IMG/VR virus record: IMGVR_UViG_3300010392_000877
Location: 1-28,140 of that record
DNA length: 28,140 nt
Strand: one strand, 5' to 3'
From: a virus
Shown: positions 1 through 28,140 of the stretch, piece after piece
Layout: every line of letters begins with the position of its first letter
Position numbering within the stretch: the stretch's first letter is position 1
The notes under the pieces: model-generated
What the model saw: only the letters and a program-made list of their open reading frames with translations
Database searches by the model: none
What the model was told of the DNA's origin: nothing
Translations under genes and position numbers: made by a program

Positions 1-766
1 CATTATAAGCCTCAACGCACTGAATAGTGCTTGTAATCATCTGACCACCACCAACTGTGAAACGCATCCACAGTGGAAGGGTGACATCATCCCCATCATA
101 AATGCTGAGCCAGTTTTGAGTCGCAACAATAATGGCTCGCGCCGGGAAATCTTTACGTGCAGAACGAGTTGAGCTGGTAGGTTCATTTGCCCAACTTGAA
201 TAATTAGAACGAGTTCGCCACGCACCTCCGTCAGAATCATCACGAGTATCGTATACGATTGTGTCAACGAGGGAGCCACCGCCGGTCAGTTGGAAAACTT
301 TATTCACACTGGCAAGAATGAAGTCATCGGCTGTAACGTTTCCGTAGAACAAACCACTACCATCTACCTGCATGTCTTTTTTCACATGGAACAGGTCTTG
401 ATAGACTTGCGCGACTTGGGCGCCATTAGCACAGAAGCCAACCCATTTCTTTGAGCTGGTTATTCCGAAGTTGATACCTGTCGTAGAAACTCCGTATGCG
501 CCGTAAGCAGGAATGTTAACTGTACCATTACCAGCAAGAATGGCTTTCTTTGCCTTGATTGAATAATCAGTTCCGATAACTTCATCGAAGCCAACACCCA
601 AACCACCTTCGCTGTTGACGGTTGGATATTCAATCTTTGTTGTTGGCCCGGTAGCGATTTCGAGTCGCTTGTAGATCGGGTCGAAGAAAGGCTCACCTGC
701 AAGGGCTTGCTCGCTGTCATTCGAGTGAGCTTCACCAAGACGCAGTGTGATATGAAACGGACCCAT
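1..766 (-). CDS. Tail-fibre/structural protein, C-terminus beyond window
   Basis: The reading frame opens at ATG 766 and is still open at base 1, so at least 255 residues are present and the C-terminus is missing. The start is fixed by GGAG 8 nt upstream, which overlaps the stop codon (770-772) of the preceding gene. No catalytic motif is visible. Residues about 170-230 contain a D-T-R-D-D-x-D-G-G-A-W-R-x-R block followed by S-W-x-N-E-P, F-P-A-R-A-I-I-V and IYDGDD-x-x-LPLWM. I recall this pattern from large structural or fibre proteins of other phages, but I cannot name a family. It follows two fibre/collar-like genes at the distal end of the tail cluster, which fits an adhesin or fibre at the baseplate rim. 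A virion role is likely; the exact function is unknown. Confidence 0.7.
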   Translation of the reverse strand, partial: MGPFHITLRLGEAHSNDSEQALAGEPFFDPIYKRLEIATGPTTKIEYPTVNSEGGLGVGFDEVIGTDYSIKAKKAILAGNGTVNIPAYGAYGVSTTGINFGITSSKKWVGFCANGAQVAQVYQDLFHVKKDMQVDGSGLFYGNVTADDFILASVNKVFQLTGGGSLVDTIVYDTRDDSDGGAWRTRSNYSSWANEPTSSTRSARKDFPARAIIVATQNWLSIYDGDDVTLPLWMRFTVGGGQMITSTIQCVEAYN

Positions 767-769
767 GAA

Positions 770-1564
770 TTAATCTCCGAAGTTTTTGCCACCGCTCGGC
801 TCTACCGAACGGGTTTGGTTGAACGAACCGCCGTCACGCTCAAGAGAGACAACGCGCTTATCTGAATATTCACCACCGTAAAGAACTTTACCGGCAGGTG
901 AAGTGTAAAGGTCACCGACAACGCCGCCAGAAATTACGCCGTATGCGCCAGAAGCCATATCGATAAAGAAGGGGTTTGCCCACCACATGTCGTTTGCCGC
1001 ATCAGCGTACAGAATAGCCGGTCGGTTTGTACCCTTGAAATTTTCACATAAATAGACAGGAAACTCTGCAACGCTTGGGAGTGTTCCTGTAACTGCTGTC
1101 TCAACCGCAACAACCGGAAGCGTCTTTTGATCAATCACTGATACGCTGACAGAAGCCGGGGTTTCATCTGTGAGAATGCGTAACGGAAACTGAATATTCA
1201 TTTCAGTACCTAGTACGGACCGTTGTGAGCGTACTTTTGGAACGGACGTAGAACGAACTCCGAAAGCGAATGGTTGGTCGCGATTGTCATACAACATTAT
1301 ATTTCCAATGTCGAAATCTCCGACACTGTGATCAAGTGTCAGCTCGATAACTGCAACCGCTGTCCACGAACCAAATTTCAGTTTGATCTGAGAAGCATTG
1401 CCTTCGTATACAAAGTCTGCAACATCGGTATCATTCGGCTTTGGCGAGAAGCCTGCCAATGAACCAATGCGAAACTTTGGAATTGAGATTGGCTTACCAA
1501 GAACCAGCGCACGAGTGAATGCGATTGCGCCTTGTTGGGTAAGGATTGTTTTTATTTCACTCAT
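770..1564 (-). CDS. Tail fibre/collar-like protein, paralogue of the next gene upstream
   Basis: This 264-residue protein starts at ATG 1564 with GGAG 6 nt upstream. The N-terminal half has the layout of phage tail-collar/fibre attachment domains: a short helix 'LTQQGAIAFTRA', a strand 'FRIGSLAGF', then 'FDIGNIMLYD' followed by 'PFAFGV'. Its neighbour at 1574-2236 shares the same order of motifs and a matching C-terminal block, here 'WWANPFF' then 'GVISGGVVGDLY'. This protein continues for about 35 more residues after that block, rich in Gly and Ser. The two genes are therefore probably a tandem duplication. Position after the baseplate wedge genes suggests a baseplate-to-fibre connector or short fibre. 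The fold is inferred from pattern only. Confidence 0.65.
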   Translation of the reverse strand: MSEIKTILTQQGAIAFTRALVLGKPISIPKFRIGSLAGFSPKPNDTDVADFVYEGNASQIKLKFGSWTAVAVIELTLDHSVGDFDIGNIMLYDNRDQPFAFGVRSTSVPKVRSQRSVLGTEMNIQFPLRILTDETPASVSVSVIDQKTLPVVAVETAVTGTLPSVAEFPVYLCENFKGTNRPAILYADAANDMWWANPFFIDMASGAYGVISGGVVGDLYTSPAGKVLYGGEYSDKRVVSLERDGGSFNQTRSVEPSGGKNFGD

Positions 1565-1573
1565 TTGCGTCTC

Positions 1574-2236
1574 CTACGAAACAGTTCGATCATACAAGTC
1601 ACCAACTTCCCCGCCTGAAATTATTCCAAAGTCGATTGAGACAGGGAAAAAGAACGGATTAACGAACCAGTTGTTTCCGGCATAAGCTACAGCTGGAATA
1701 TTAAAATTTTCTGTGAGCTTATCGAACACCGTTGTAACTCGCGACAATTCGGAAATGTTAGCTTGTCCAGTAATCTCGTTCGTTTGAACGTCGAGTTCCA
1801 TTTCCGTCGATTGGCCACTTGGAAGATTGAATAATCCGAAGATGTCTTCATACTGCAAGCTCAGGCCTATGGTTACCCAATCACCACCATTGTCGTCACT
1901 CTTCGGAACTTTCGTAAGTGTGCGATCAAACACACCATAAGCGAGTGGCGTCCCATCTGACAGGAAGAACACCACGTTGCCAATGAATAATTCAGAATCG
2001 TCACGAAGATTGATCAATACAACAAGGCGGTCGGAACCAAATGGCGTATAATAAACGTTTGCAGCCAAAACAGTTGTTTGCAGGTTACCAACAACGTCAG
2101 TAAGCGAAGCGCCTATAGTTGGGTGAGTTGCAAGTGACGCATCGCCAATTTTCACAGAACCGAGTTCTAACGAACCGGCGGTTGCAGCTGCCAGCTTCGT
2201 GCGTCCAAGATCAGTAATGCCTCCACGAAATGCCAT
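1574..2236 (-). CDS. Tail fibre/collar-like protein (paralogue)
   Basis: This 220-residue protein starts at ATG 2236 with GGAG 9 nt upstream; that SD overlaps the stop of the preceding gene. The spacer between SD and ATG is an AATTATTC block, one of the dispersed AT motifs. 'ITDLGRTKLAAA', 'VKIGDASLA', 'LFIGNVVFF' and 'PLAYGVF' match, in order, the motifs of the downstream gene at 770-1564. The C-terminal 'NNWFVNPFF' then 'GIISGGEVGDLY' matches that protein too, but here the chain stops a few residues later. This layout is known from tail-fibre N-terminal (collar) domains that dock to the baseplate. The role is inferred from this and from position. Confidence 0.65.
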   Translation of the reverse strand: MAFRGGITDLGRTKLAAATAGSLELGSVKIGDASLATHPTIGASLTDVVGNLQTTVLAANVYYTPFGSDRLVVLINLRDDSELFIGNVVFFLSDGTPLAYGVFDRTLTKVPKSDDNGGDWVTIGLSLQYEDIFGLFNLPSGQSTEMELDVQTNEITGQANISELSRVTTVFDKLTENFNIPAVAYAGNNWFVNPFFFPVSIDFGIISGGEVGDLYDRTVS

Positions 2237-2242
2237 GAATAA

Positions 2243-3127
2243 TTACTCCGCTACTGCCATGAACCGCATATTAAGGTGCGATCCGTTTGCAGTTCTATGT
2301 TTCATATCAAAGGGCGCGATTAGTGCGAGAATTCCGTCAAGCACAACGTTAATTGGCGCTTGCACCAAGAAGAGTTCCTGCATCTTTGCAAGGTCAATGT
2401 AAGGTGTTTTTTCAGCATCATACTTCAGTAAGACGTGTGAGGTCGGGAAGTATAGAATAGAGCCGATGTAGCCACCTTTTGAGCTTCGGCCTGTGAACTT
2501 CAGCGCGCCTTCACGGTAGAAGTTCTCACCATCTGCAGTCCATAAATATTCAACAGTGAAGTTTGCGTTGATCATCCACGACAGAAACTTGACTGACTCG
2601 TTCGTTGAAGACTGGCGGCGATACCGTCCAGCATTTTGTGCGATACGCCAGTAAGCTTCTGTTGAAAGATCGTCCGACAGGAATGAGATACCAAGCATTT
2701 CCACATGCTGGATCATGAACGGACGTTCAATACGATTGAAGATACTGAAATATTCACGACGGCGGCGCTTTACGTTGGCGTTGCGGTCGTATTCGTCGTA
2801 ATAGACATATACCGTATCTTCGATTTCTTCTGTAAGCGTATCATCAGCTGTTTCGACAAGCTCAGCAAGGCCGCGATCCCCGAGAACAAAACGTTCAGCC
2901 TGAGACGCTACAAGACCAGTTCCATCTTCATCAATAATGAAAAAATCACCCGCTTGGAACCGAAGCAGGTTACGCTTAGCAGCAAGCTCCCGGCGCGGGA
3001 CAGTCACATATATGTGATTGAGTTTGTCCCAAGCTGTGAATAAATCAACAATGAACTCACTGGATGCCAGCGGTGCAGGAAGATTTGGCTTTAGGTTTGT
3101 TGCAGGTGTGCGGAGACTACGAACCAT
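2243..3127 (-). CDS. Baseplate wedge / tail protein I-like protein
   Basis: I chose ATG 3127 (294 residues), preceded by GGGA at 8 nt and overlapping the upstream gene by 11 nt; an in-frame GTG at 3145 would add six residues. No enzyme motif is visible. The central region 'AYWRIAQNAGRYRR' followed by 'FLSWMINANFTVEYLWT', and the later 'APINVVLDGI', resemble the helical wedge proteins that follow gpJ/gp6 in contractile-tail clusters (P2 gpI or T4 gp7-like). Residues about 100-135 are a charged stretch with 'RRRRE'. Position directly after the gpJ/gp6-like gene supports a wedge role joining the inner baseplate to fibre proteins. Homology is tentative. Confidence 0.6.
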   Translation of the reverse strand: MVRSLRTPATNLKPNLPAPLASSEFIVDLFTAWDKLNHIYVTVPRRELAAKRNLLRFQAGDFFIIDEDGTGLVASQAERFVLGDRGLAELVETADDTLTEEIEDTVYVYYDEYDRNANVKRRRREYFSIFNRIERPFMIQHVEMLGISFLSDDLSTEAYWRIAQNAGRYRRQSSTNESVKFLSWMINANFTVEYLWTADGENFYREGALKFTGRSSKGGYIGSILYFPTSHVLLKYDAEKTPYIDLAKMQELFLVQAPINVVLDGILALIAPFDMKHRTANGSHLNMRFMAVAE

Positions 3128-4682
3128 CGACAGTATCCCGTTCACTATAGTTCACGTTGATTGTAATGTTGCGAAGCTTGATGAAGCTTTTTTCATCAAT
3201 CTTTACATCATTCGCTGGCCCACGAACGATTGCGTGCGTGATCAGGTTCTTTGTTGTGTCTTCATTTTTCAAAGCGCGGTGAACGTCATCCTTGTAAAGC
3301 GACCGGCCAAGTGACCCTGTTTTGATTTTGAACTTATCACGCAAATGTGTTTCGAGCGCTTGGCGAACTGACTTCAGGTTTGCTTTTGCCAGACAATAAA
3401 CGTCGGCAGTAATGTCCACGATAACTGCGCTAGGGTCAGCGCGCTCTAAGTGCACGCCAATCAGTGAACGGTCTTCTAGCCAGAGTTTGAACGTCTCCCA
3501 TTCATCGTCAGTGAAGTTCTCACCATTATATTTCAAAGCAGTAACTCGAACACGGTTGAAAAGTTTTGGGTCCGTTGGATCAATATCACGCTGCCCTAAA
3601 GCCTCGGCATCCACGATACCGGGATAGGTTGAAATAACAGCGCGGTATTGTTCGCGAGTAACCGCTTTGTTGATTGCAGAATGAAGGCTCGGGCCGTTGA
3701 CTTTGTAGAACTCAAAATCTTTTTCGTCGCCTCCGCCTTGTGAGCCGGTTGTTGTGAAGCCTGTAATGTTCGCATTGTTTTGACAGGTAACATCGGCGCT
3801 TGCAGAAGCGTAAGCACCGGCTTCACCGCGAGTACGACCGTAGCGGAATAATATTTCAGAACCAACAGGAGGAATGTTGCCGTTGACACCAGAGCCAAAT
3901 GTTATTTCAGCTGTGCCCTTTGCCGTGGTATCTTCTTGGAAGACATTTTCTTGACCATGGGACCAAACACCTTCGTCAGTACGATCCCACTCAACACCGG
4001 CAACGTAGCAGAGAACGTCTTCGTTCGATAACGTGAAGTCTGACAAACCAATCTCAAAACGCTGGTATGCCGCGCCATTTGAAATAAAGCGTTCTTCGAT
4101 TATGTCACCTTCGTAAAGCTCAACGTCCTCAAGAGTCGTCTCGCCTTGCTTGAACACAATAACTGAACGATTGAAGTAAACGTCTCGGCCAACTGACCAA
4201 CGTGAGTAAGGCTGAATAATTTGTTCAACCGTAGTGTCTGAGTTAGTCAGCGTCGTAAGCACAAGTGATGGCGTTTTACGTTCAATACGTACACCAAGCA
4301 TACGAGCGATTGCATAAACAGAGTTTGGAAGACGGGCTGTATCGAGAACAGTTTCCTGTGCGGCGCGAATAATCGAAGCTTGCGAATAGGCAATCCCTTC
4401 CGCAATTGCTGCCAGCAACATTGAACCAGTTGCCGAAGTCGAAAGATCGTTCCAGCTTTGGTATTTTGTAACCTCGACTTGCAAAGCACTGAATATTTGT
4501 TCAAAGTCAGGTGCAACCTTAGACAAACGAATCTGCGTTGGCAGCTGTTCGGTCATGAATGTGCGATACCAATCGGCAATATCATCTTTCGTAACAAGTT
4601 TGCCTACTGCCACGCCTTTTGCTGCTAGGTTCTTCAGCAAGTAGTCTGCAAAACTTGTTGCGGTCTTATCGTAAAACGTCAT
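3117..4682 (-). CDS. Baseplate wedge protein, gp6 / gpJ-like
   Basis: This 521-residue protein starts at ATG 4682, 12 nt after the stop of the gp25-like gene. It has the layout of baseplate J-like (T4 gp6) wedge proteins: an N-terminal helical region (about 30-140), a beta-rich centre containing 'ITFGSGVNGNIPPVGSEI' (about 265-282), which is the typical 'FGDG-x-x-G-x-x-P-x-G' type turn, then 'AVTREQYRAVISTYPGI' (about 340-356) and a C-terminal 'VDITADVYCLAKANL' section. In the family these proteins form the wedge ring around the hub and trigger sheath contraction. The gene order gp25-like, gp6/J-like, I-like is the standard one. The family call is solid; the T4-versus-P2 subtype is not resolved. 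Confidence 0.85.
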   Translation of the reverse strand: MTFYDKTATSFADYLLKNLAAKGVAVGKLVTKDDIADWYRTFMTEQLPTQIRLSKVAPDFEQIFSALQVEVTKYQSWNDLSTSATGSMLLAAIAEGIAYSQASIIRAAQETVLDTARLPNSVYAIARMLGVRIERKTPSLVLTTLTNSDTTVEQIIQPYSRWSVGRDVYFNRSVIVFKQGETTLEDVELYEGDIIEERFISNGAAYQRFEIGLSDFTLSNEDVLCYVAGVEWDRTDEGVWSHGQENVFQEDTTAKGTAEITFGSGVNGNIPPVGSEILFRYGRTRGEAGAYASASADVTCQNNANITGFTTTGSQGGGDEKDFEFYKVNGPSLHSAINKAVTREQYRAVISTYPGIVDAEALGQRDIDPTDPKLFNRVRVTALKYNGENFTDDEWETFKLWLEDRSLIGVHLERADPSAVIVDITADVYCLAKANLKSVRQALETHLRDKFKIKTGSLGRSLYKDDVHRALKNEDTTKNLITHAIVRGPANDVKIDEKSFIKLRNITINVNYSERDTVDGS

Positions 4683-4693
4683 TTATTCAATTC

Positions 4694-5089
4694 CTATGCT
4701 GCAAGACGATAGGCGAAGGTTTCTGTGCCGCCGAGAAGATCAACAGCAACGGACAAAGTGACCTCATTGATACCAGTCTGCGAGGCCTTTACGTTACGCG
4801 GTTTGACACTTCCGTATCGAAGCCATTGGTTAAGGGCTGAAGTCACTTCGCTCTCAATCTCATACAAGGTCCCAGCCGAAGCCAGACGAAATAGATATTT
4901 TTCAAGATTTACCCCAAACGTCGGCTCGAACGGGTAAGTTCCTTTTACCGTTTCGATAATATTCAAAATCTGATAGTTGATAGCCTCAATGTCTACAGCC
5001 TGCGCACTTGAAACGTTGCGCTTGTAGAAGCGGTTAAGGTCAACAACACGAGCCCTGCGAAGGACTGTTTCAGGAAGATCAATATTCAT
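4694..5089 (-). CDS. Baseplate wedge protein, gp25-like
   Basis: This 131-residue protein starts at ATG 5089, overlapping the upstream spike gene stop by ATGA, which implies translational coupling. Family hallmarks are visible: 'AINYQILNIIETVKGTYPF' followed by 'EPTFG' and 'LEKYLFRL', then helix 'IESEVTSALNQWLRYG' and a beta-rich C-terminus. This matches the gp25/GpW ('lysozyme-like' by old naming) wedge subunits that prime sheath polymerisation at the baseplate in T4, P2 and other contractile injection systems. Length is normal for the family. Its place between the spike and the gpJ/gp6-like gene is also standard. Confidence 0.88.
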   Translation of the reverse strand: MNIDLPETVLRRARVVDLNRFYKRNVSSAQAVDIEAINYQILNIIETVKGTYPFEPTFGVNLEKYLFRLASAGTLYEIESEVTSALNQWLRYGSVKPRNVKASQTGINEVTLSVAVDLLGGTETFAYRLAA

Positions 5090-5766
5090 AGCTTGGTGTT
5101 CCCGGCAACATTACGCCCGGTTGGTTTTGTCCGGGCCGTAGTGGTAACTGGCGAAGTGCCAGATTGTGAATCGTTCAAATGAATTTCAGTTGCGCGAATA
5201 TCAACTAGGCTGCCGCCATGAACTGAAACTTTATTAGCGGCTAAAACGTCAACTTGGGTTGAACCGCTCACAGTAACTTTTGTGGCAGACGCAATTGTAA
5301 GTTCACCGTCAGGTGCAATTTCGATCTTGGAGCCAGATACATGAATAAATCGAACTTCTTTTGTGATCGTGTTCACAAAGAACAGGTTACCTGCAGCATC
5401 AATCCAACCGTAGCTGTTCGGGTAGTCGGCAAGCAATTCGGCGGGAATTGAATTTTCATAAGCAAAGTCGGCAACGTATGACGTATTGTAAAGGGAATCG
5501 TCATTGAACTGCAGCATGACCTTTGCGCCAACTGCGGGAACACGTATGCCGCCAACGCCGCCACCGACGCCAGAAGGTCCAAGGTGCATTTGCGGACGCG
5601 ACCATGGAAGCTTTGTATCCGGAATATCACGATGCAGTAATGGAACGCGAACGCGAACACGCAACAGTTTGTCTGGATCGTTATTATTCACGACATCGCC
5701 AGCAACAATCAATCCCCGTAGGGATTCCCTGCCTAGCGCTTTCGATAAAGGCTGTGCAGAACTCAT
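5086..5766 (-). CDS. Baseplate central spike, gp5 / gpV-like OB-fold protein
   Basis: This 226-residue protein starts at ATG 5766, overlapping the hub gene by ATGA. The N-terminal domain has the spike OB-fold pattern: 'VVNNNDPDKLLRVRVRVP', then 'KLPWSRP', a Gly-rich loop 'GVGGGVGG' with 'RVPAVGAKVMLQF', and 'SYVADFAY'. The C-terminal part (about 150-200) consists of short strand repeats such as 'KVTVSGSTQVDVLAANKVSV', typical of the beta-helix needle of membrane-piercing spikes. There is no lysozyme domain of the T4 gp5 type; the only visible peptidoglycan-degrading domain is in the tape measure. No metal-binding HxH tip or PAAR motif is seen. Confidence 0.85.
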   Translation of the reverse strand: MSSAQPLSKALGRESLRGLIVAGDVVNNNDPDKLLRVRVRVPLLHRDIPDTKLPWSRPQMHLGPSGVGGGVGGIRVPAVGAKVMLQFNDDSLYNTSYVADFAYENSIPAELLADYPNSYGWIDAAGNLFFVNTITKEVRFIHVSGSKIEIAPDGELTIASATKVTVSGSTQVDVLAANKVSVHGGSLVDIRATEIHLNDSQSGTSPVTTTARTKPTGRNVAGNTKL

Positions 5767-6983: not shown

Positions 6984-6993
6984 GAATAAATAC

Positions 6994-7353
6994 CTACAAC
7001 AACACGCGCGAGCCACGGCCCGGTGATTGCGACTTCGTACTGGAAACGCGGGTTGTCGGTCGAGGAATACTGATAAAGCTACCAGTCTTCAATTCACCCG
7101 GATGCTGCGCACCATTGAAAAATAATGGAAGCCACCACGCCGATACTGTACCGAATTGAGTATGCGCCAGAACGTCAAGCTTCAGTGACTTATCCCATTG
7201 GAAGTCGCCTACCGAAGTCAGTGAGTTTACAAACTTGGCTCCATCTGGATTGAAAAAATCTATGGAGTCTTTCGTCTCCCCATCTTCATCCTTGTACGTT
7301 GTCATAGGGAAGTATGCAGACAAGTTGTATTGTGCATTAGATGAGCTAGCCAT
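6994..7353 (-). CDS. LysM-like baseplate protein (gp53-like)
   Basis: This 119-residue protein starts at ATG 7353 inside a TAATG stop-start overlap with the upstream gene. Residues about 58-98 ('LDVLAHTQFGTVSAWWLPLF', then 'FNGAQHPGELKTGSFISIP') follow the LysM pattern: D-x-x-A, then 'FG' for the usual 'YG', WW, N, and a closing G-x-x-(I/L)-x-I-P. Small LysM proteins at this place in contractile-tail clusters (T4 gp53, P2 gpX-like) join hub and wedges and do not bind peptidoglycan. The C-terminal 20 residues are Ser/Arg-rich and probably disordered. Confidence 0.72.
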   Translation of the reverse strand: MASSSNAQYNLSAYFPMTTYKDEDGETKDSIDFFNPDGAKFVNSLTSVGDFQWDKSLKLDVLAHTQFGTVSAWWLPLFFNGAQHPGELKTGSFISIPRPTTRVSSTKSQSPGRGSRVLL

Positions 7354-8246: not shown

Positions 8247-8257
8247 GAATAATTCTC

Positions 8258-10906: not shown

Positions 10907-10912
10907 TGAATA

Positions 10913-14346: not shown

Positions 14347-16707
14347 TTAAGCAGCGGTGGCGTTAGCTTGCAGCTCTTGGAACGTGATCTGTCGATCAGT
14401 AATCGTCGTAACCAGCTTGATTTTTTCAGCCGGGGTAACGAAGTACAGAATAACATCAACGTTCAACTGACCAGCAGCTTCGTGATATTCCTTGTTGTTG
14501 AGACCATCCACAACAACTTCGAAATATTTCAAAACACCGGCACGGCGGTAAGATTCAAGCAAGTTTGAAATGCTTTGCTTGATGCGGAAGCGTGTCGTAT
14601 CGTCGTTTGCCTTAAACACTGAAAAATCAAGACTAGCAACAATCGCTCGTTCGATCTGGTTAAGGTCTAGGCGAACCGGCACAAACGAAAGCGGGCTTTG
14701 CTTCCGTTGCATAGTGCGGGCACCCCAGATAACGATACCGCTACCACGTTTTTGAATAATTGGATTGACGTTAGAGGCTTGAAGTTGGCCAATATCCCCG
14801 TGATTGTAATCTTCTCGAACTTTCGTAGCGCGAGAAATGGAACCGTTGTCGATACCTGCCGGGGCACCAACGTTGCGGATTTGTGCCTGACGCTCAGCGA
14901 TGCGAGCACAAACATCACCGGAAGGCGGAAGGTAGCGACCACCCGGCGAATATTGAGAGACTGCGAAGATGTCAGGTGAGTACAGTGCAACCTGCGAACT
15001 ATTCAGCGACAAGGTGAAGTCTGAATATTCTTTGGCAGCGTCAACAGTCTGATGAGTACGTGGCATGTCTAGAACACCAAAACAGTCACGGCGTGCTACA
15101 CAAACTTCGTTGATCTTTTTCTGAACAGAGGCGCTTGTGTAACCAGCGTTCATGAAAAGAGTGATCGGGTATTTTTCACGATCTTTGAACTTATCCATTG
15201 CGGCCATGATGATCGAGTCGGTAACTGCACTACCTGCAGCACCGTTTTCAAGCCATTGAATGTCACTATGCACGTTCAACAGAGTTTGTGCGGCGTCGTA
15301 CCATGTTCCCGGCATACGCGGCTTATGCGAGCCGTCGGTCGCGGCATACAATGTATATTCAGGCTGGCGAACTCGAATGTATTGCGACCGGCCACCGCTT
15401 TCATTCACGGTATATGAAATATTCGTTTGCTCACCGAAGTCATTGACGTTCTCGTTCAGCGTAACGCGGAAAGTTTCAACCGGCGTATTCGGATCGTCTT
15501 TCAGGTACACTTCGAGAGTGAACAGGCCAGACCAATCATCCGGCTCAACAACCGTTTCAACAGTTGCGGTCGGAGGCGTGCCGGTTCCGCCGGTCGTAGC
15601 AGTGAGCGCAAAGTCATCACCATAATCACGATGTCTGAAATAAATCGTGTAGGTAACGTTGGTTCCGCTTTCGGGAGTTGCGCCAAGGGCCGTCTTCCAA
15701 TCCTGCTCACCAATCTTGGTTGAAATATTATAATCATCCAAAGCAGTATCAAGTGCGGTCTTGATTGCATCCATAGTGGTCGCATGATCTGTATCAAACG
15801 AAACAGGCCCAACACTGATGCCGTCAACAGAGAACGAAATTGTCTGACCAGTGACAAACGCTTTGCTCAGTTCAATCTTCTTTGTCGTTTGACGACCGTA
15901 GTCCATGTTGCGCACGCGGTAGCCAAGGCGGTTTGCCCAGATACCCGGCGAGATAGCATAGACTTCAAACAGAACCGGCTTCAATGAAATTTTACCAGTG
16001 CCGCCAGTACCAAATGAGAAAGCAGACAATGCAGGCAGATATTCACCTTGTGCAGAAAGAATACGAATGTACTTCGTTCCGTCATAATCTGCATCAATCA
16101 ACTCTACTGAAATATCAGAGTCGATTGTTTGAAGATCAGTCTCAAGGTCGGCTACAAAAGCTGCAAGCGTAGTTGCGTGGTCAGAGTCAAAAGCAGTTGT
16201 GGTAACAACATCTGCTGCACCGTTACCCGGAGAAGCGGTGATTGTTGCGCTTCCCGCTGTCATTGTACCGCCAACTTCTAACAACGCCATATCACGACCA
16301 GCGGCTTCATAACCGACGGTCGAGTCTGTGTCGCTGGTTGAAATAACAGCTTTCGGGAAGAAGCTTTCTTCGCCAGTTTTCGAAAAGCCTTTGTTATAGT
16401 CCGAAGTCGAATGCAGAATTGACATTGCGTACTTCGAGCCATTGTCAGCTCGCAGAGCATAAACAGAGGCGCCAGTTCCCAAAAATTCAAGGATACATTC
16501 ATGAGCGTTCGAAACAGCCGGGTTAGGGCTGCCAAATGCCTTCTTGAATTTTTCAGGATCGCCATTGATAAGAACCGGCTCGTTCACCGGACCTTGTTCT
16601 GACTCGAAAACAACAGCAGCAACCGTCGGTGCGGCTGCAGCGATAGCTTGGGCTTGATCCACTGTGTAAGCGTATACACCGGGGGCAAGATCATTAATGA
16701 GGTCCAT
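14347..16707 (-). CDS. Tail sheath protein
   Basis: I chose ATG 16707 (786 residues, MDLINDLAPGVY) because GGAG lies 5 nt upstream; a TTG 13 codons earlier has no SD. Sheath hallmarks are the N-terminal 'LAPGVYAYTVDQ', 'GDPEKFKKAFG', and at the C-terminus 'GIVIWGARTM', 'FVPVRLDLNQIERAI', 'LDFSVFKANDDTTRFRIKQS', 'LESYRRAGVLKYFEVVVDG' and a final beta strand 'VDVILYFVTPAEKIKLVTTI'. The C-terminal domain is the conserved handshake region that links sheath subunits. The large middle (about 130-430) holds two similar beta modules, each with an 'FD(S)DHATT' motif (residues about 185-190 and 320-325), and is probably a surface insertion with an internal duplication. The protein is longer than T4 gp18 (659). 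Confidence 0.92.
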   Translation of the reverse strand: MDLINDLAPGVYAYTVDQAQAIAAAAPTVAAVVFESEQGPVNEPVLINGDPEKFKKAFGSPNPAVSNAHECILEFLGTGASVYALRADNGSKYAMSILHSTSDYNKGFSKTGEESFFPKAVISTSDTDSTVGYEAAGRDMALLEVGGTMTAGSATITASPGNGAADVVTTTAFDSDHATTLAAFVADLETDLQTIDSDISVELIDADYDGTKYIRILSAQGEYLPALSAFSFGTGGTGKISLKPVLFEVYAISPGIWANRLGYRVRNMDYGRQTTKKIELSKAFVTGQTISFSVDGISVGPVSFDTDHATTMDAIKTALDTALDDYNISTKIGEQDWKTALGATPESGTNVTYTIYFRHRDYGDDFALTATTGGTGTPPTATVETVVEPDDWSGLFTLEVYLKDDPNTPVETFRVTLNENVNDFGEQTNISYTVNESGGRSQYIRVRQPEYTLYAATDGSHKPRMPGTWYDAAQTLLNVHSDIQWLENGAAGSAVTDSIIMAAMDKFKDREKYPITLFMNAGYTSASVQKKINEVCVARRDCFGVLDMPRTHQTVDAAKEYSDFTLSLNSSQVALYSPDIFAVSQYSPGGRYLPPSGDVCARIAERQAQIRNVGAPAGIDNGSISRATKVREDYNHGDIGQLQASNVNPIIQKRGSGIVIWGARTMQRKQSPLSFVPVRLDLNQIERAIVASLDFSVFKANDDTTRFRIKQSISNLLESYRRAGVLKYFEVVVDGLNNKEYHEAAGQLNVDVILYFVTPAEKIKLVTTITDRQITFQELQANATAA

Positions 16708-16773
16708 GTCGGCTCCTATTGTGTCAGCATGAATATTTACATGCAACGAATTTGGTCAGTCACCATTAGTTGC

Positions 16774-17425: not shown

Positions 17426-17455
17426 AACAACCTCGAATTATTCACCTTCTTACAT

Positions 17456-18211: not shown

Positions 18212-18217
18212 GAAAAA

Positions 18218-18805: not shown

Positions 18806-18834
18806 TGCAGGCGCTCCTGATTATTCAAGGCCAA

Positions 18835-18862: not shown

Positions 18863-18880
18863 CCAGTTTACCGCTGAAAA

Positions 18881-19975
18881 TTAGCGAGAGCCTTGCGACA
18901 CACCGCGACCGTTGTGCGTGGTGATCGACAGGATTTCAGCCATGTTCCAGCCTTTCGACGTATGGCCGTTGATGACCATGTTATCAACCGGAACAGACTC
19001 AACCGGGCCACGATCCGTATAACCACCAACATATTCCGGCGGGGCGAGTGCGAACACTTCACCTTTCGACAGAACTTTAAGGCGCGGGTCACGGAACTGG
19101 TCTGTAACGATTTCCGTACCGTACAGACGAGCCACGGTGCCAGTCATGATATTTTCATGAGTAGTAACCGGATCGAATGCAGCAACGAAAGTCGATGCAG
19201 TCAGAATGTCGTTCATGACATCGGAAGCGATGAGCATGGACGGGCAGTCATAGCCGTAGTTGCGAATATTGAACATGATAGTTGCAACAGTAGCCGGAGT
19301 ATAGCCGCCACCCACGTAGGTGATAGCATTCGGCATACCAACCATGCCTTTCATCAGACGAATGAAAATTTCGTCTTCTTTGCGCATGATTTGCTCTTGA
19401 GCTTCAAAGAATTTTTCATCCAGAAGCGAAGCAGAGCCTTGCTGCATTTCAATATTCGAGACACCGACAGAAGCACGAACTTCAAATTCCGGTGCCCAGA
19501 TGTAGTAACCGCGAGCCATTTCTGGCTGGATCGAAGACGGGCCAGCGGCAACAAGTGCCGAAGTCGTCTTGCGCTTAATGCGGTGACGCGGAATGTCGCC
19601 TTGCGACAGGTCGCCACGAAGCAGGAAGCGGCGCATGAAACCTTCACGATCAATCGACTCGTAAAGTTCAGACGCAATCATTGCTCCGAGTTCGGACCAA
19701 TGCGTGCGGTCAGAGTCTTGATAAGCGGCTGATAATTCAGCAATCACCTGACGCTTATCTTCTTCAGTTTGTTCAACTGCACGCTCATCAGAAGCATTCA
19801 TGACTTCGCCCGAAGCAACAGCTTGTGCGAGTTCAAGAATACGAGCCAGAGCTTCTTGTTTGCTGCCAGCGTTCATTTCGCCTTTAGCATTGAAAAGCGG
19901 CTCACTTCCACGACCACCGGGACGCCATTCGCGCGAGGTGACGGCAGAACGTCCATGCAAGTTATTCAATTTCAT
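18881..19975 (-). CDS. Major capsid protein, HK97-like fold
   Basis: This 364-residue protein starts at ATG 19975 with GGAG 8 nt upstream. Residues about 1-95 form a charged helical N-arm ('QEALARILELAQAVASGEVM'). The rest has capsid features: E-loop region 'RHRIKRKTTSALVAAGPSSI' (about 131-150), a long spine helix 'LLDEKFFEAQEQIMRKEDEI', A-domain 'GYDCPSMLIASDVMNDI', and a C-terminal P-domain strand 'DRGPVESVPVDNMVINGHTS' followed by 'GWNMAEILSITTHNGRGV'. This subunit builds the icosahedral shell. The N-arm may be cleaved by the prohead protease encoded upstream. It is shorter than T4 gp23 (521). Confidence 0.88.
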   Translation of the reverse strand: MKLNNLHGRSAVTSREWRPGGRGSEPLFNAKGEMNAGSKQEALARILELAQAVASGEVMNASDERAVEQTEEDKRQVIAELSAAYQDSDRTHWSELGAMIASELYESIDREGFMRRFLLRGDLSQGDIPRHRIKRKTTSALVAAGPSSIQPEMARGYYIWAPEFEVRASVGVSNIEMQQGSASLLDEKFFEAQEQIMRKEDEIFIRLMKGMVGMPNAITYVGGGYTPATVATIMFNIRNYGYDCPSMLIASDVMNDILTASTFVAAFDPVTTHENIMTGTVARLYGTEIVTDQFRDPRLKVLSKGEVFALAPPEYVGGYTDRGPVESVPVDNMVINGHTSKGWNMAEILSITTHNGRGVSQGSR

Positions 19976-20012
19976 TTTGGATACTCCAATTTTTCAGGTT
20001 GAGCCGATTCTC

Positions 20013-20726: not shown

Positions 20727-20761
20727 AATTCAATTTCTCCAGTTTGTGGCTTGATGCCGGT

Positions 20762-22417: not shown

Positions 22418-22577
22418 GTTTCAAACTCCAAGTCATGTATGGCAGGAAGCCTGCCACCCGCCAATTTTTGGCGGCAATGGAGTTTAGAATGGTAAAAGTT
22501 TTTTGTGGAATTTTTACCATGGTAGAAGTTCGGATCGGACGAGACCCTACCACAATATGGGAATTTATATATTCAGC
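22418..22577 (-). promoter_or_regulatory. Leader region of head operon with four hairpins
   Basis: This 160-bp region is the longest non-coding gap in the window. In transcription order it holds a TATAAAT-like box (plus 22564-22570), a pair TGGTAG/CTACCA (22547-22552 with 22520-22525), a 9-bp inverted repeat ATGGTAAAA/TTTTACCAT (22489-22497 with 22512-22520), CCGCCAA-TTT-TTGGCGG (22458-22474) and TGGCAGG-AAG-CCTGCCA (22440-22456), then the GGAG of the next gene. None is followed by a U-tract. It probably sets expression of the scaffold and capsid genes, either as promoter plus 5' leader or as a processing site. A 41-codon ORF (22395-22520) passes through it but has no SD. Confidence 0.55.
22563..22574 (-). 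promoter_or_regulatory. Candidate late-type promoter box (TATATAAAT)
   Basis: On the transcribed strand the sequence reads ATATATAAATTC just after the topoisomerase stop codon and about 145 nt before the scaffold start. T4-type late promoters consist of a TATAAATA box. The match is 7 of 8. It sits exactly where a promoter for the head operon would be expected. No second such box lies in an intergenic gap, and AT blocks are common here, so this is only a candidate. Confidence 0.35.
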
Positions 22578-24857
22578 CTAAGAGTCGGTCTTTGGTATCC
22601 AGTTAGGCGGTCTATAGCCACGTTCAACGAACCAGTTGCGACTTACGGAAGGATCGATATACGACTTCACAGAGGTCAAATAAAGTGCTTCGCCGCTTGC
22701 GCTCTTGTGTCCAAGAGCTTTCGCAACTGCCGTAGCAATCTTTTCCTTGAAAAATTTGGTTGCTTCGCGGTATTGAACGTCTTTTGATTTGCCTTCTGGC
22801 GGTGTGAACTTGCGAACTGAAATAAGCTCACGTGCAATCTTCGTGCCTTTGGCATGGCGAAGCTTGTGCGGTGTAGACGGAAAGCCGATTGATTTGAGCC
22901 AATTGCGGAACAGGGCTGCCGAAGCGTGCTTCTTTGAAACCATACCGGGAACTTCCCAAAGCATATCATTCTTGCTACGGCCTTCAGACAACTTCTTGAC
23001 CAAAGCAATGACTTTTTTCAGGAGCGGGTTTGTGCCACGAATGATATGCTTTTGCTTCATACCTTTCTTACCTGAATATTTAATGACAAGCTCATTGCTG
23101 TTAAGCTTGCTTATGTGGCCGACCTTCCAAGTCGTAACGCCGTAAGTTGTTTTGCCGTCCGTCTTGTTACCCTTACCGCCGATACGTGCCTGACACTCAT
23201 ACATGAATATTGCCTGAGCAGATTGCAGGACTTCCATGTCAGGGCGTTCTTTTACGCTCCAATTCTTAAGTGGCGCTTCCCACTTTGTCTGATATTTCTC
23301 AATGTTGTCCATAACGACTTCGACAACCTTGAATTTTTCAGTACGTGAAGATTGGTGGTGATCATACGTATAGTACGAGCTTTCAAGACCGGTTTCGTCA
23401 TCAACGGCTTTGAACACATACTGGTTTGCGCCTTCAATACCGAACTCCGGGTTCATGAAGATGCGGCGACCGCGCTGAGGCCAGCCTTGGATGGGCCGAT
23501 TGTCGTTCGTGAATAATTCAATCTTCTTGCCATTGATACCAATCTTGGCATTGAAGCCCTTCGGCACGTAGTTCACTAGAACACCATCTTGCTTTAGGCG
23601 CTGTAGGAACTCTTTAACTGGAATAGGCTTACCACTACGGCGCAGGATAGACAGTGTTGCTTGGTTCCACAGTGCACGCATCTGGCGCTGCACTTCCATG
23701 TATTTTTCATAGGTGGAGCGTTTCTTGTGACCAACCTTGAACTCACTCGCTTGTTGGAACGTAAGCAGGTATTGCCCCTTGTCCGGGTTCTTGACCAGTT
23801 GTGCAATCAATCCGCGAAGCTGTTTTTTCAAGTCCATGATTTCCTGAGAGCTGACTGCATCAGGAATGAACTGAACTGAAAGCTCGATTATGTTCAGAAG
23901 ATCAACCGTGCGGAATACACGATCCCATGAAGACTTTGAACGGTTACGATAGTAGCCGCCGACTGCAGACAACATGTCCAAGTCTCGGGCTGAAAATTCC
24001 ATGTTATGACGAGCAGCTTTGTCGATCAGCAGGATTTCCTTGCCGAGCATACCAATGCTTGCGTAAGCCTCACCATCGATGCGCCCTTTGCCAATTCCCG
24101 TGCATAATTTTTCAATAAGCTGGAATTGCAAAGGAAGGTGATCAACGTAGATTGCAGCGCTGGCATCTTCAAGCCAACGCGGAATCATATTCTTTACGAT
24201 GTTGTCATTTGCAGGTTGACCAGTCTTGTCCATGAAGGCGGCTGTATATAGGATTGCCAGCACACCACGGATGGATTCTGATCTTGATTTTTCATTAAAT
24301 GGGGATTCGGTTTCTTCTGGCTTTCTCGGCAGTATAGTTTTCATCTTCTTTCGGCGTCTCTTCTTCGGTAGAAGATTAACCGACTTCAGGTATTTTTCAT
24401 GTTCCATATCACTTACCATAAGAGGAGCTTTCTTAGGTGAGTTTACAGGCTTTGCCTTAGCTCTGGCAAGTATTGTTTTCACGTGTTCGAAGAAGGAATC
24501 GAGGTCGTCAACATTGCCCTCGTGAACCATCCAATTCCACTTACCTGAATAAGAACTCATACCCCATAAAGTGTCGCCGCCGTATGTAAACGGACTACTG
24601 ATTTTATAGCGTTCCATTCTGTCAGTAACGCTTGCCAGATCAGGATCATTCCAACGCCAGTAAAGGTGCACCATAGTTGGCGAAGTGCTAAGCGACATTT
24701 CGCCTTTGCCAAGCAAACTATTGAAATAATACTTAGAAGACTGTTCGGGTCCACTGCCAGAGTCTGGACTAGGTTTGAGTCCGGCTTCTTCAACGACTTT
24801 AATGAAGCGCTTTACAATAGCTTCGCGGTCTTTTGCCCTTCCAAAAGGTTTTTTCAT
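22578..24857 (-). CDS. DNA topoisomerase IB with large N-terminal extension
   Basis: This 759-residue protein starts at ATG 24857, 8 nt after the upstream stop. The C-terminal ~330 residues carry the type IB (poxvirus/bacterial) catalytic set in order: Arg558 in 'CQARIGGKG', 'TTYGVTTW' (580-587), Lys597 in 'YSGKKG', Arg667 in 'TPHKLRHAKGT', His717 in 'ALGHKS' and nucleophile Tyr733 in 'KSYIDP'. Spacing matches the vaccinia enzyme pattern (R130, K167, R223, H265, Y274) with modest insertions. Such enzymes relax supercoils through a 3'-phosphotyrosine intermediate. A tyrosine recombinase is the alternative, but the GVTTW and SGKKG motifs favour topoisomerase. Residues 1-430 are unrecognised, with a basic 'KKRRRKKMK' patch at 165-173. 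The place inside a head gene cluster is unusual. Confidence 0.82.
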   Translation of the reverse strand: MKKPFGRAKDREAIVKRFIKVVEEAGLKPSPDSGSGPEQSSKYYFNSLLGKGEMSLSTSPTMVHLYWRWNDPDLASVTDRMERYKISSPFTYGGDTLWGMSSYSGKWNWMVHEGNVDDLDSFFEHVKTILARAKAKPVNSPKKAPLMVSDMEHEKYLKSVNLLPKKRRRKKMKTILPRKPEETESPFNEKSRSESIRGVLAILYTAAFMDKTGQPANDNIVKNMIPRWLEDASAAIYVDHLPLQFQLIEKLCTGIGKGRIDGEAYASIGMLGKEILLIDKAARHNMEFSARDLDMLSAVGGYYRNRSKSSWDRVFRTVDLLNIIELSVQFIPDAVSSQEIMDLKKQLRGLIAQLVKNPDKGQYLLTFQQASEFKVGHKKRSTYEKYMEVQRQMRALWNQATLSILRRSGKPIPVKEFLQRLKQDGVLVNYVPKGFNAKIGINGKKIELFTNDNRPIQGWPQRGRRIFMNPEFGIEGANQYVFKAVDDETGLESSYYTYDHHQSSRTEKFKVVEVVMDNIEKYQTKWEAPLKNWSVKERPDMEVLQSAQAIFMYECQARIGGKGNKTDGKTTYGVTTWKVGHISKLNSNELVIKYSGKKGMKQKHIIRGTNPLLKKVIALVKKLSEGRSKNDMLWEVPGMVSKKHASAALFRNWLKSIGFPSTPHKLRHAKGTKIARELISVRKFTPPEGKSKDVQYREATKFFKEKIATAVAKALGHKSASGEALYLTSVKSYIDPSVSRNWFVERGYRPPNWIPKTDS

Positions 24858-24865
24858 GACGGGAC

Positions 24866-26065
24866 CTATTGATCATCGTCATCAGAGATAGCGCGTTCTT
24901 TCTCCGCTGCATCACCGTCTGAGTGCAAAACCGTATTGTTGTCGATCTTGTACCCCTTGCGATCAAGCCATTTGAACAAGTCGCCGTAGGTCTCATCTGG
25001 CTTGCCGTACTTGCGGATTATTTCAACCTGTTGCGGGGACATGATACGCGAAAGCTTGTTCACGTTTGAAGGTTTAAATCCGCCGGTTGGGAGTGTATTC
25101 GCAAAGTACGCAAGGTCCATCTTGTATAAGAAGAAGCGATACCTGTAGCCAGCGTTCTCTAATTTTTCAATTGCAGCATATGCGCGGTTTTCATCAGTAA
25201 CGCGCATCGCTTTGACAGAGTTTTGTTCCCGGCCTTTGACTGTGACCTTAAAGAACATAAGGATGAGCCAATACGGTTTCTTTGTTTTTTCAGACAGGTC
25301 ATCTTCTTCAGTGTCAACGTCGAACTCGCCAGCCATGCGAAGCTCCGGATCATCGTCATCCCAATTGTCCTGCACTGAATAAATATTCGGAACACCCATA
25401 TATTTTTCAATCTTCTGAGCGTATTTCTTGAACCAAGGCCCGTGAGCATTGTACCCAAGTTGACCAAGTTCCTTACGAATAAGGTGGTCATACATGTGAA
25501 TCATTTCATGCACGAGACAGATAAAGACTTGTTCAACAGTTGTAGCGTACTCCGGGTTCACAACCATCTTGCGGGTCTTTAAATAATAAACGGCCATAGC
25601 ACCGCTCACCTGCTTCTTTTTGTCCATAGGAGGACACAAGCGATTACGGATCATCAACTTGTTTGCGAAGAAACGGCGGTTCGAAAACAGGAAGATAGCC
25701 CGTAGCAAAGGACGGCCCCACTTGATCATCACTTTGCGTGTGAAATATTTCTTCGGATCGGTCGGAGCTTTGTCTGCTTTCTTGATTGAACGTTTCTGCG
25801 CGTCAGTCAGCTCTTTCTTCTTACCGGAATCCTTTTGTGTCAGCCAGTTATCAAACTTATCCATATGCAAGAAGTTGATCTTGGCATGAATATTACCAAA
25901 GTCATCAATTGCATTGACCAGATCACCGCCAGTATTGATCACAACACCGAAATGGTAACGGTCGCGTTCATCGCGCCAAGTCACCCGGCAACCAGTGAAG
26001 AACTTCTTCGAAGCTGTTCCGCCATCAGCTGTTTCAAGTTGTTTCGAAAGCTCGCTATACAACAT
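24866..26065 (-). CDS. SprT-like zinc metalloprotease
   Basis: This 399-residue protein starts at ATG 26065, 4 nt after the upstream stop, with GAGGA 8 nt before. The motif 'LVHEMIHMYDH' gives HExxH (His186, Glu187, His190), and the third zinc ligand is His208 in 'AHGPWFKKY', the SprT arrangement. Residues about 20-75 look like a small beta-barrel ('GCRVTWRDERDRYHFGVVIN'). No C-terminal zinc ribbon is visible; instead there is a 150-residue unknown domain ending in an acidic tail 'ISDDDDQ'. The SprT superfamily includes Wss1/SPRTN, which digest proteins crosslinked to DNA, including trapped topoisomerases. The next gene, 8 nt away, encodes a topoisomerase IB, so a joint role is an attractive inference. 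Confidence 0.8.
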   Translation of the reverse strand: MLYSELSKQLETADGGTASKKFFTGCRVTWRDERDRYHFGVVINTGGDLVNAIDDFGNIHAKINFLHMDKFDNWLTQKDSGKKKELTDAQKRSIKKADKAPTDPKKYFTRKVMIKWGRPLLRAIFLFSNRRFFANKLMIRNRLCPPMDKKKQVSGAMAVYYLKTRKMVVNPEYATTVEQVFICLVHEMIHMYDHLIRKELGQLGYNAHGPWFKKYAQKIEKYMGVPNIYSVQDNWDDDDPELRMAGEFDVDTEEDDLSEKTKKPYWLILMFFKVTVKGREQNSVKAMRVTDENRAYAAIEKLENAGYRYRFFLYKMDLAYFANTLPTGGFKPSNVNKLSRIMSPQQVEIIRKYGKPDETYGDLFKWLDRKGYKIDNNTVLHSDGDAAEKERAISDDDDQ

Positions 26066-26069
26066 TTAT

Positions 26070-26402
26070 TCAGTCCTCATAAATGGGAAGTGGGATTTTC
26101 TTTCCCGCGTTCGAGTGTGTGCAGTCGTTCAGGAATTCCACTACACCATCAGTTATGAATATATGACAGATTCGCTTAGCTTGGTCAGCTAACGGTTCCA
26201 GCTCTTGTGAGTGATTATGCTTCCAAGTCGTCAGTAAGCTAGGGCGAACAGTTGGCTTGAGTTCATCGCCTTCAATTGTCCAACCTTTGCTTCCGGCACG
26301 CTCACCAACACGAAAGGTGTGAACAGTTCCGCAACCGGGGCACTTAAATGAATAATAATCACACCCATTAATATTGGGATGAGCATCGAATACCCTAGGC
26401 AT
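26070..26402 (-). CDS. DUF6527-like small zinc-binding protein
   Basis: This 110-residue protein starts at ATG 26402, directly after the TAA of the protease gene (TAAATG), with no clear SD. It has 'CPGCGTVHTF' (Cys21, Cys24, His28) near the N-terminus, 'TVRPSLL' in the middle, and 'CHIFITDGVVEFLNDCTHSN' followed by AG near the C-terminus (Cys79, His80, Cys94, His96). This is the signature of a small family common in phage genomes, which I believe is DUF6527 and which is sometimes mis-named ammonia monooxygenase. Zinc binding is inferred from Cys/His pairs. The function is unknown; position after the protease gene suggests a role in head assembly or merely co-transcription. Confidence 0.72.
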   Translation of the reverse strand: MPRVFDAHPNINGCDYYSFKCPGCGTVHTFRVGERAGSKGWTIEGDELKPTVRPSLLTTWKHNHSQELEPLADQAKRICHIFITDGVVEFLNDCTHSNAGKKIPLPIYED

Positions 26403-27179
26403 TTATTCAATGAAGTTTGGGTTCACAGCCTGCACGTAGGCCGGGACTTCAACGGATGAACATTCAAAGCCGATAGGATCGAGAGCGCGATAGTACGCAA
26501 CCTTGCCCTTATACATCGCCAGCTCAGGCTTGCCTTTAGCAACGTGGTTACAGCCTTTATTTTTCAAAGTCTTACCACAGATTGAGCATTCGTAATCTCG
26601 CACCCATGCACCCATTGAGTAGCCGGTGCGTTGTTTTTTCAAGATGCTATTGACGAGTTCCGGATCGCGGCCACGGTCAAACGCATTCAGTACAACAATC
26701 TGCCAGAGATTGCCTTGGAAACGCTTCATCGGACGCATCGCAGCGTCAAGAATAATCCCCTTGGCTTTCGTATGGTCTGAATTATTATGCTCCACAAAAG
26801 TAGGCTTGCCACGCCATGTCTTGTAAGCAATCGTTCCGTGTTCGTGGTTGAACGCTGTCAGTTCCTTCATCGGGAACGCAACGCCGTTACGGTTCGGTAT
26901 CTCAGTTGTCATGATCGAAGTCGGAACCATAACATAGTCTTCGAGCTTCGATGAAATATTATACGACTCTGCAGCAAAGGGAAGCCACTCGTGAGCGTCC
27001 AGAACACCTTTGAAGGTCTTCTTAACTTCATCACCTGCAATAGCCATGGTGCGGCGTGCAGAGTTTTCATTGCCTTTTAGAACTTGGTGAATGTCGATAG
27101 GATCAAGCGCTTCACAACCAAAATCACCAGCATATGAATATTCAGCTGTACGACCATTTAACATTTTGAGAGGCTTCAT
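26403..27179 (-). CDS. Prohead (maturation) protease with zinc knuckle
   Basis: This 258-residue protein starts at ATG 27179 with GGAG 6 nt upstream. The protease core is recognisable by 'GKPTFVEHNNSDHTKAKGII' (about 124-143) with candidate catalytic His131, and 'TGYSMGAWV' with candidate Ser188, followed by the terminal 'FECSSVEVPAY' where E-x-S-x-V-x-x-P-A is typical. Between them, 'CSICGKTLKNKGCNH' (Cys198, Cys201, Cys210, His212) forms a zinc knuckle, also known in other T4-like phage proteases. The enzyme cleaves scaffold and capsid precursors inside the prohead. Position upstream of scaffold and capsid genes fits, although three unrelated genes intervene. Confidence 0.75.
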   Translation of the reverse strand: MKPLKMLNGRTAEYSYAGDFGCEALDPIDIHQVLKGNENSARRTMAIAGDEVKKTFKGVLDAHEWLPFAAESYNISSKLEDYVMVPTSIMTTEIPNRNGVAFPMKELTAFNHEHGTIAYKTWRGKPTFVEHNNSDHTKAKGIILDAAMRPMKRFQGNLWQIVVLNAFDRGRDPELVNSILKKQRTGYSMGAWVRDYECSICGKTLKNKGCNHVAKGKPELAMYKGKVAYYRALDPIGFECSSVEVPAYVQAVNPNFIE

Positions 27180-27207
27180 AGGAATCTCCGTTATATCTCG
27201 CTATCTT

Positions 27208-28140
27208 TTAGGGTGTGACCGGCTCATTTCGATGATCATCCCAGACTATGTTTTCGGCACCACCAAAGCGGCTATTCCAAGCCTTGAAAAATACTGTATG
27301 CGGTTGTCCGAAGTGTAGGCCTAATTGGTGCTGAATTACTCGGCCCATATGGTTCTTATCCGGGTTCGGTACTGTCCAATTGGCTTCAAACGAAAACACA
27401 AAGTCAATACGGGGTCCGGGCGTTCCGTCCGGGCGGCGTGCGCCTTTGATGAACTGAGCCGCCGGAACGGCATCAGCGTTGAACTTGATGATCTTCTTTG
27501 AGACTGACGGTCTTGAAATAATATTGTTCGACTCATGGTCAAGCAAACGATTATCGCGCATGACCTCACATTGAAGGATTGCAGGCAACGGCTTCACAAA
27601 CTTGCCGGTCTGTGAGTCGCGTACAAACCAGTTCGAGTCATTGTCTTGCGTAGACAATTCGTGCCTTAAAATAATCTCCCAATCGTCTTGACGTGCTAGA
27701 GAAATCCGAGCGGCAGCAGCGAACATGTAACGACATGCACGATGGATATTTTTTGCGATTGAGTCATCTGCCAGAAGTTCGTTCTTGATACCTTCAAAGT
27801 AACGATCAAAGATTGGCCACACCATTTCCGATTTGTTAACCTTTGAATAATCATAAGCTTCCATAAGAGCTTTCAAAGGGTCTTCATTCGGATGCAGGCG
27901 GGAAACGTGGTGCGGGATTTTCGGCTCTATGAGAACGTAATCCGGAAGCCGTAGGCACGACACCATTGGATACACGCCAGTTACGTTCTCTGCAGCATCA
28001 AAAGCTGCATCTACAGCATTTGAAAAATCCCGGTACGCTGTCAACGTACCGGAACGCAAGTCACTTCCATTACGGCAACGCGGTGGAACTTCAAAAACAA
28101 TTCCGGACACCGACCGGTCACGTGCACTTTGTGTTGTCTC
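27208..28140 (-). CDS. Hypothetical protein, N-terminus beyond window
   Basis: The frame is open to the right edge, so the true start may lie outside. The first in-frame start codon inside is GTG 28110 (300 residues), without a good SD. No known motif is visible. The middle is helical ('KNIHRACRYMFAAAARISLA', about 120-140) and the C-terminal part beta-rich ('RIDFVFSFEANWTVPN'). It precedes the prohead protease gene with a 28-nt gap that holds the protease SD. The head cluster context suggests a virion or neck protein, but I do not recognise it. Confidence 0.6.
   Translation of the reverse strand, partial: ETTQSARDRSVSGIVFEVPPRCRNGSDLRSGTLTAYRDFSNAVDAAFDAAENVTGVYPMVSCLRLPDYVLIEPKIPHHVSRLHPNEDPLKALMEAYDYSKVNKSEMVWPIFDRYFEGIKNELLADDSIAKNIHRACRYMFAAAARISLARQDDWEIILRHELSTQDNDSNWFVRDSQTGKFVKPLPAILQCEVMRDNRLLDHESNNIISRPSVSKKIIKFNADAVPAAQFIKGARRPDGTPGPRIDFVFSFEANWTVPNPDKNHMGRVIQHQLGLHFGQPHTVFFKAWNSRFGGAENIVWDDHRNEPVTP

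Follow-up and report, generated by a model that had tools for sequence, protein, structure and literature searches.

A 28,140-base DNA fragment of a jumbo myovirus (IMG/VR record IMGVR_UViG_3300010392_000877, analysed along its whole length and here called the window) carries an octamer, TGAAWWWW, which is almost certainly a selected, lineage-specific DNA word that covers the DNA evenly. Coverage of a whole genome was established only in the related Rhizobium phage RHph_N46 (N46 in the following), which uses a different word, (T)GGTARNA; for the window phage, the statement refers to the 28,140-bp fragment. In the open-access literature, no account was found of a virus genome that carries an evenly spaced DNA word under selection. 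Should a protein recognise the word, this would be a chromatin-like phage system with its positions encoded in the genome sequence itself, and a single DNA-level rule would shape the silent sites and the protein sequences of most genes together.

Number, spacing and coverage of the word in the window

The virus record is linear, and every main gene in it is encoded on the minus strand (Table 1). The gene set comprises baseplate wedge, tail sheath, tail tube, a tail sheath stabiliser-like protein, major head protein, head maturation protease, an SprT-like protein and a type IB topoisomerase; the major head protein gene identifies the window as part of a jumbo myovirus. The relatives of its proteins are jumbo myoviruses at 25-43% identity, namely Rhizobium phages RHph_N46/RHEph12, NCTB, PaBG, Lu11, Motura, BcepSauron, and phages of Erwinia and Dickeya. 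The window adjoins N46 with moderate support in the trees of head protein and tail tube, and is not placed beside it in those of portal and protease. A search of genome contigs for relatives found none. A second IMG/VR contig, with 99.98% identity to the window across 16.6 kb, adds 4.3 kb that contain terminase and portal genes and 24 additional matches to TGAAWWWW.

Table 1. Sites and genes of the window, with coordinates on the 28,140-base stretch
Feature	Position	Strand	Remark
Array of 177 merged sites TGAAWWWW[T/C][A/C], either orientation	197..28028	.	mean spacing 158 bp
Palindromic double site TGAAWWTTCA	863..872	.	example among 17 dyads of 10-11 bp
Palindromic double site TGAAWWWTTCA	1036..1046	.	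example among 17 dyads
Palindromic double site	1191..1200	.	motif match
Palindromic double site	1984..1994	.	motif match
Palindromic double site	2746..2756	.	motif match
Site abutting start codon (sense WWWWTTCATG)	2236..2243	+	example
Further start-codon sites, e.g.	4682, 8246, 10907, 13795, 14326, 17064, 18211, 26065, 26402		
Tail sheath gene	14347..16746	-	Pfam PF04984; PHROG 23
Major head protein gene	18881..19975	-	PHROG 2522, E 6.5e-56; MCP tree: beside RHph_N46
Type IB topoisomerase-like gene	22578..24857	-	Pfam PF01028; rejected as reader of the word
Head maturation protease gene	26403..27179	-	PHROG 18299, E 4e-80

TGAAWWWW matches the window 194 times (99 forward, 95 reverse); its reversed control, AAGTWWWW, matches 7 times. 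Once each of the 17 overlapping dyads (TGAAWWTTCA, TGAAWWWTTCA) is counted as a single site, 177 sites remain, at a density of one per 158 bp, in good agreement with the first-pass annotation, which had counted about 170 copies in both orientations at about one per 160 bp. Base composition predicts about 14-19 copies, and the excess is thus about 10-fold, close to the 12-fold claimed earlier. In coding DNA, 173 of the 194 copies compare with 31.8 ± 5.1 after synonymous-codon shuffling (maximum 48, n = 500), an excess over codon usage of about 5-fold; this shuffle had been suggested as a check, and it does not reproduce the count. Among A/T runs of at least 6 bases, 177 of 239 are anchored, and 56 unanchored runs contrast with 153 ± 8 in the shuffles, so that the reported rarity of runs lacking a TGAA/TTCA anchor holds as well. 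A/T runs are depleted in both the window phage and N46. At about 10 of the 27 gene starts in the window, a site abuts the start codon.

The gaps between merged sites have a mean of 158 bp and a coefficient of variation (CV) of 0.43, compared to 0.99 for random placement and to a lowest value of 0.77 in 20,000 random placements. Gaps below 50 bp number 6 versus 47 expected, and gaps above 300 bp number 5 versus 26 expected. Both the shortage of short gaps and the non-random gap distribution had been noted from the letters alone; the one gap over 400 bp listed with them does not exist, the longest being 387 bp. Counts per 4 kb stay between 24 and 27 across the whole window, site counts in 2-kb bins have a Fano factor of 0.05-0.09, and a joint motif-and-spacing (duration) model returns TGAAWWWW[T/C][A/C] with a spacing of 164 ± 58. 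The spacing is not crystalline, and helical phasing of the sites was rejected, as no 10.5-bp signal was found. Orientations are balanced and independent between neighbours (82 plus, 78 minus; runs z -0.9).

The rule behind this pattern is one of coverage: selection for a copy is strong when the nearest other copy is more than about 80-100 bp away, whereas a copy close to another is neutral. Permissible positions, defined as coding sites able to carry the word without amino-acid change and computed from the proteins, number 345 in the window, and 173 of them carry the word. When sites are drawn at random from these positions, the mean CV is 0.89 (minimum 0.68, n = 5000) versus the observed 0.43, which rejects the possibility that the regularity is forced by the positions that the proteins permit. 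At least 100 bp from another site, 115 of 128 permissible positions (90%) are used; closer than 30 bp to another site, 4 of 65 (6%) are used, which is the neutral rate obtained when codons are shuffled around fixed sites. This relation between occupancy and distance is partly geometric, as the neighbours of a used site follow the gap distribution, but random use of half of the positions would make it approximately flat. Of the 21 gaps above 250 bp, more than half are devoid of any permissible position. Given this occupancy pattern and the long gaps without permissible positions, sites are missing where the protein does not allow them, and extra copies are tolerated but unwanted. Active short-range exclusion, for example by a steric footprint, was hinted at by the pair correlation but was withdrawn because surplus nearby copies occur at the neutral rate; the apparent short-range repulsion is mostly absent selection for redundant copies, not active exclusion.

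Words in related phages

The closest cultured relatives of the window phage are the Rhizobium phages RHph_N46, I42, N28_1 and RHEph12. TGAAWWWW is not enriched in N46 (8 sites in 42 kb versus 13 expected). When every 4-mer was scanned without bias in RHph_N46 (about 188 kb), GGTA had a gap CV of 0.69, compared to a mean over all words of 1.02 ± 0.06, and the full word, (T)GGTARNA, is evenly spaced, asymmetric and common to RHEph12, I42 and N28_1. In the comparison with relatives proposed in the first-pass annotation, the Rhizobium phages thus lack TGAAWWWW itself but have an evenly spaced word of their own. A spacing model that includes weaker variants gives 100 ± 39 bp in N46, and GGTARNA alone 171 bp. 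The word is found in all four quarters of the genome, on both strands, and in early and late regions, whatever the gene direction. A host-derived word was rejected because GGTARNA is not enriched in the Rhizobium etli plasmid p42f (11 per 40 kb versus 265 in 42 kb of N46). The presence of the trait in cultured Rhizobium phages, albeit with another word, makes the binder directly accessible to standard methods, and the two lineages, each with its own word, amount to a natural experiment on how more than a thousand sites evolve together with a protein that binds them.

Conservation at synonymous sites, another check that had been called for, is pronounced between N46 and RHEph12. In the structural region, 3 of 172 fourfold sites differ inside the word versus 852 of 5685 outside (1.7% versus 15%; p = 9e-9), and in the replication region 10 of 195 versus 1306 of 6345 (5% versus 21%; p = 3e-9). 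This constraint is specific to the word, since GGTA without a following RNA shows 26% divergence at fourfold sites. Word copies were lost at 14 of 53 redundant sites (another copy less than 60 bp away) versus 20 of 222 isolated ones (p = 0.002), as the coverage rule predicts. Compensatory gain near lost sites is only suggestive: in one pair, gains lie within 60 bp in 4 of 18 cases versus 1.0 expected (p = 0.015), and the effect is absent in the other pair.

Moreover, the proteins are altered to fit the word of their own lineage. When residues were shuffled within each window protein, 251 ± 13 permissible positions were obtained versus 345 observed (z 7.2); for the word of N46 and for a control word, the same test in the window gives z values of 1.5 and -0.4, respectively. 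The N46 proteins give z 3.6 for GGTARNA, 0.1 for TGAAWWWW and 2.3 for the control, and because the effect is weaker there and the control is not zero, weight is placed on the window result.

About 150 further relative loci, several of them overlapping, were found with sheath, head protein, portal, baseplate, polymerase and protease queries, and contain no regular word above background score. Their best-of-many z values are between -2.3 and -4.5, while the window reaches -7.1 and N46 -8.5; corrected for the merging of close hits, the values are -6.8 for the window, -10.8 for N46 and about -3 for two further relatives. The weak candidates TAAA (L112), AGGT (L140) and TGAA (L122) are common 4-mers at background level and were rejected. 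Likewise, no regular word was detected in the scanned stretches of PaBG, Lu11, Motura, NCTB and PhiXhv-12, which carry related type IB topoisomerases, in phiXF1, which has gyrase A, or in the scanned stretch of Peetri, which has an SbcD-like exonuclease.

Possible readers of the word

The first-pass annotation had proposed that the word is probably read as DNA, not as protein or RNA, with a nucleoid-type or condensing protein or the encoded topoisomerase among the candidate readers. The first part is upheld by the occurrence of both orientations and several codon phases, by the synonymous constraint and by the proteins altered to fit; the balanced and unordered orientations point to duplex DNA as the thing that is read. 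A nucleoid-type binder fits best and stands as a candidate only, whereas the topoisomerase has to be given up, as relatives with the related enzyme lack a regular word in the scanned stretches. A phage-encoded reader is likelier than a host one because GGTARNA is not enriched in p42f and because the words differ between lineages.

The chance that the words are binding sites of a phage-encoded genome-organising protein is, in our estimate, just short of even. A sequence-specific protein that organises the phage DNA as a nucleoid or chromatin, probably encoded by the phage, would land on each word and service about 100-160 bp of duplex around it, and a long site-free stretch would be bare and costly. 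When the specificity of the protein shifts, the word would shift between lineages, and the sites would follow the new specificity via codon choice and even amino-acid changes. The purpose might, speculatively, be to compact replicating DNA or shield it from host nucleases, or to order the DNA for packaging. Even coverage of the whole genome, established in N46, and silent-site constraint, as expected for sites of such a protein, were both found. The wider notion of a jumbo phage group with sequence-addressed chromatin, in which a protein with a lineage-specific word coats or folds the whole genome at intervals of about 100-160 bp, and in which the demand for the word fixes silent codons and alters protein sequences throughout the genome, is more tentative.

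A lead to the binder is provided by an N46 gene (L010:45139-45822) for a 227-aa orphan histone-H1-like protein. Its first half is rich in Lys, Ala and Pro and resembles the tail of histone H1, while its second half is Ala-rich and presumably forms a helical domain; a recognised sequence-reading domain was not found in it. By tblastn, the protein occurs only in the five Rhizobium phages of the N46 group, a restriction that low-complexity masking may overstate. Among the about 205 N46 proteins, Pfam detects no HU/IHF, H-NS, Lsr2 or AbrB domains. Nucleoid proteins of the HU/IHF, H-NS and Lsr2 types and the phage protein TF1 also organise DNA genome-wide, some of them via short A/T-rich sites, but normally impose no evenly spaced specific sites on a genome.

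The nearest known patterns are DNA uptake words and HIP1, both of which belong to cells and depart from the phage word in density, rule or symmetry. It is possible, although unlikely, that the phage word is a self-recognition mark (Chi-like or uptake-word-like) that is recognised by a nuclease, a recombinase or a transport process of phage or host, in which case no fragment of about 150-200 bp may lack the word. The coverage rule, both orientations and the lineage "dialects" resemble uptake words, and N46 encodes Mre11/Rad50-type exonuclease subunits. However, known self-words are much sparser, at about 1 per kb, relatives with the same type of exonuclease, for example Peetri with an SbcD-like one, lack a regular word in the scanned stretch, and the sites show no order of orientation relative to replication, as Chi-type sites would. 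The uptake words DUS and USS are cellular, occur about once per kb and serve natural competence, whereas the phage word is viral, occurs once per 100-160 bp, is far more even and, although over-represented on both strands, is carried by a tailed-phage genome, not by a naturally competent bacterium. In other respects, DUS and USS of Neisseriaceae and Pasteurellaceae are alike, being short, over-represented on both strands, mostly genic and divided into lineage dialects (PMC3630211). Their even spacing was noted by Karlin and once taken as a sign of compaction, for which uptake words were, however, judged too unevenly spaced (PMC1939737).

More doubtful is that a phage enzyme modifies the DNA specifically at the word, to protect it or to mark a strand. 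The N46 annotation includes a putative DNA methyltransferase, the word is short and asymmetric, and the HIP1 words of cyanobacteria, likewise massively over-represented octamers, accompany orphan methyltransferases (PMC4390886). According to the same paper, another word may replace HIP1 where it is rare. HIP1 is palindromic and cellular, contains methyltransferase sites and is not known to follow a coverage rule. In contrast, TGAAWWWW and GGTARNA are asymmetric, and 17 of the 177 window sites are dyads. Modification alone would leave the coverage rule and the neutrality of nearby extra copies unexplained, and TGAAWWWW, with its degenerate A/T half, does not resemble a methylase target.

A dispersed transcriptional silencer, comparable to the stoperator system of Cluster A mycobacteriophages, in which a phage-encoded protein also reads an asymmetric word dispersed across the phage genome, is improbable. 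Stoperators number about 20-30 per genome, are mostly intergenic and have a preferred orientation, whereas the window word, with about 180 sites per 28 kb, is several-fold denser, lies within genes (173 of 194 copies) and occurs in both orientations without order relative to transcription. Nothing observed points to a temperate lifestyle. Still, phages with dispersed repressor sites are known (PMC9283540, PMC6550527), and N46 encodes several small helix-turn-helix proteins.

Slightly less probable again is that the word marks primase sites, at which replication would start, or sites of topoisomerase or gyrase; the primase, DnaB, gyrase A/B and topoisomerase IB of N46 could be invoked here. Gyrase wraps about 130 bp of DNA, but phiXF1 with gyrase A and the relatives with topoisomerase IB lack a regular word in the scanned stretches, and known primase words comprise about 3 nt. 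Finally, a mutational or codon-usage artefact is extremely improbable: the depletion of A/T runs in both phages implies some general sequence bias, but the synonymous shuffles and the specific silent-site constraint rule out such an origin of the word, and the proteins are bent for their own word only.

Site placement and A/T runs

In the window, 19 TGAAWWWW sites fall within 1447 bp of intergenic spacer, which corresponds to about twice the coding density, and in roughly 10 of the 27 genes a site abuts the start codon or lies one base from it. Outside the sites, both phages have far fewer A/T runs of at least 6 than their synonymous shuffles, with 56 observed versus 153 shuffled in the window and 62 versus 112 in L005, a stretch of the cultured relative RHph_N46. 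RHph_N46 shows the depletion although its own evenly spaced word, GGTARNA, is no A/T run. In two loci from relatives (L140 and L122), the common 4-mers AGGT and TGAA were slightly too even (z ~ -4), within the scan background.

Basic proteins and DNA-related genes

A family search with the very basic protein of the window phage returned no significant match. The H1-like orphan of RHph_N46 was found only in the five phages of its group, a tblastn-based restriction that low-complexity masking may overstate. RHph_N46 also has genes of its own for gyrase A and B and for topoisomerase IB, together with two that resemble thymidylate synthase genes; this set perhaps hints at a modified thymine. One early-region protein (L012, RHph_N46 1-46200) matches the anti-CBASS family Acb1.

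Coordinates of the features discussed
Feature	Position	Description
Start-codon TGAAWWWW sites	window 2236, 4682, 8246, 10907, 13795, 14326, 17064, 18211, 26065, 26402	
195-aa protein gene (window phage)	L001:1673-2260	very basic; between terminase and portal
Orphan 227-aa protein gene (RHph_N46)	L010:45139-45822	N-terminal half Lys/Ala/Pro-rich, histone-H1-like
Gyrase A/B, topoisomerase IB, thymidylate synthase-like genes (RHph_N46)	L010:9045-12418, L011:41314-43134, L012:31118-32230, L010:18792-19508
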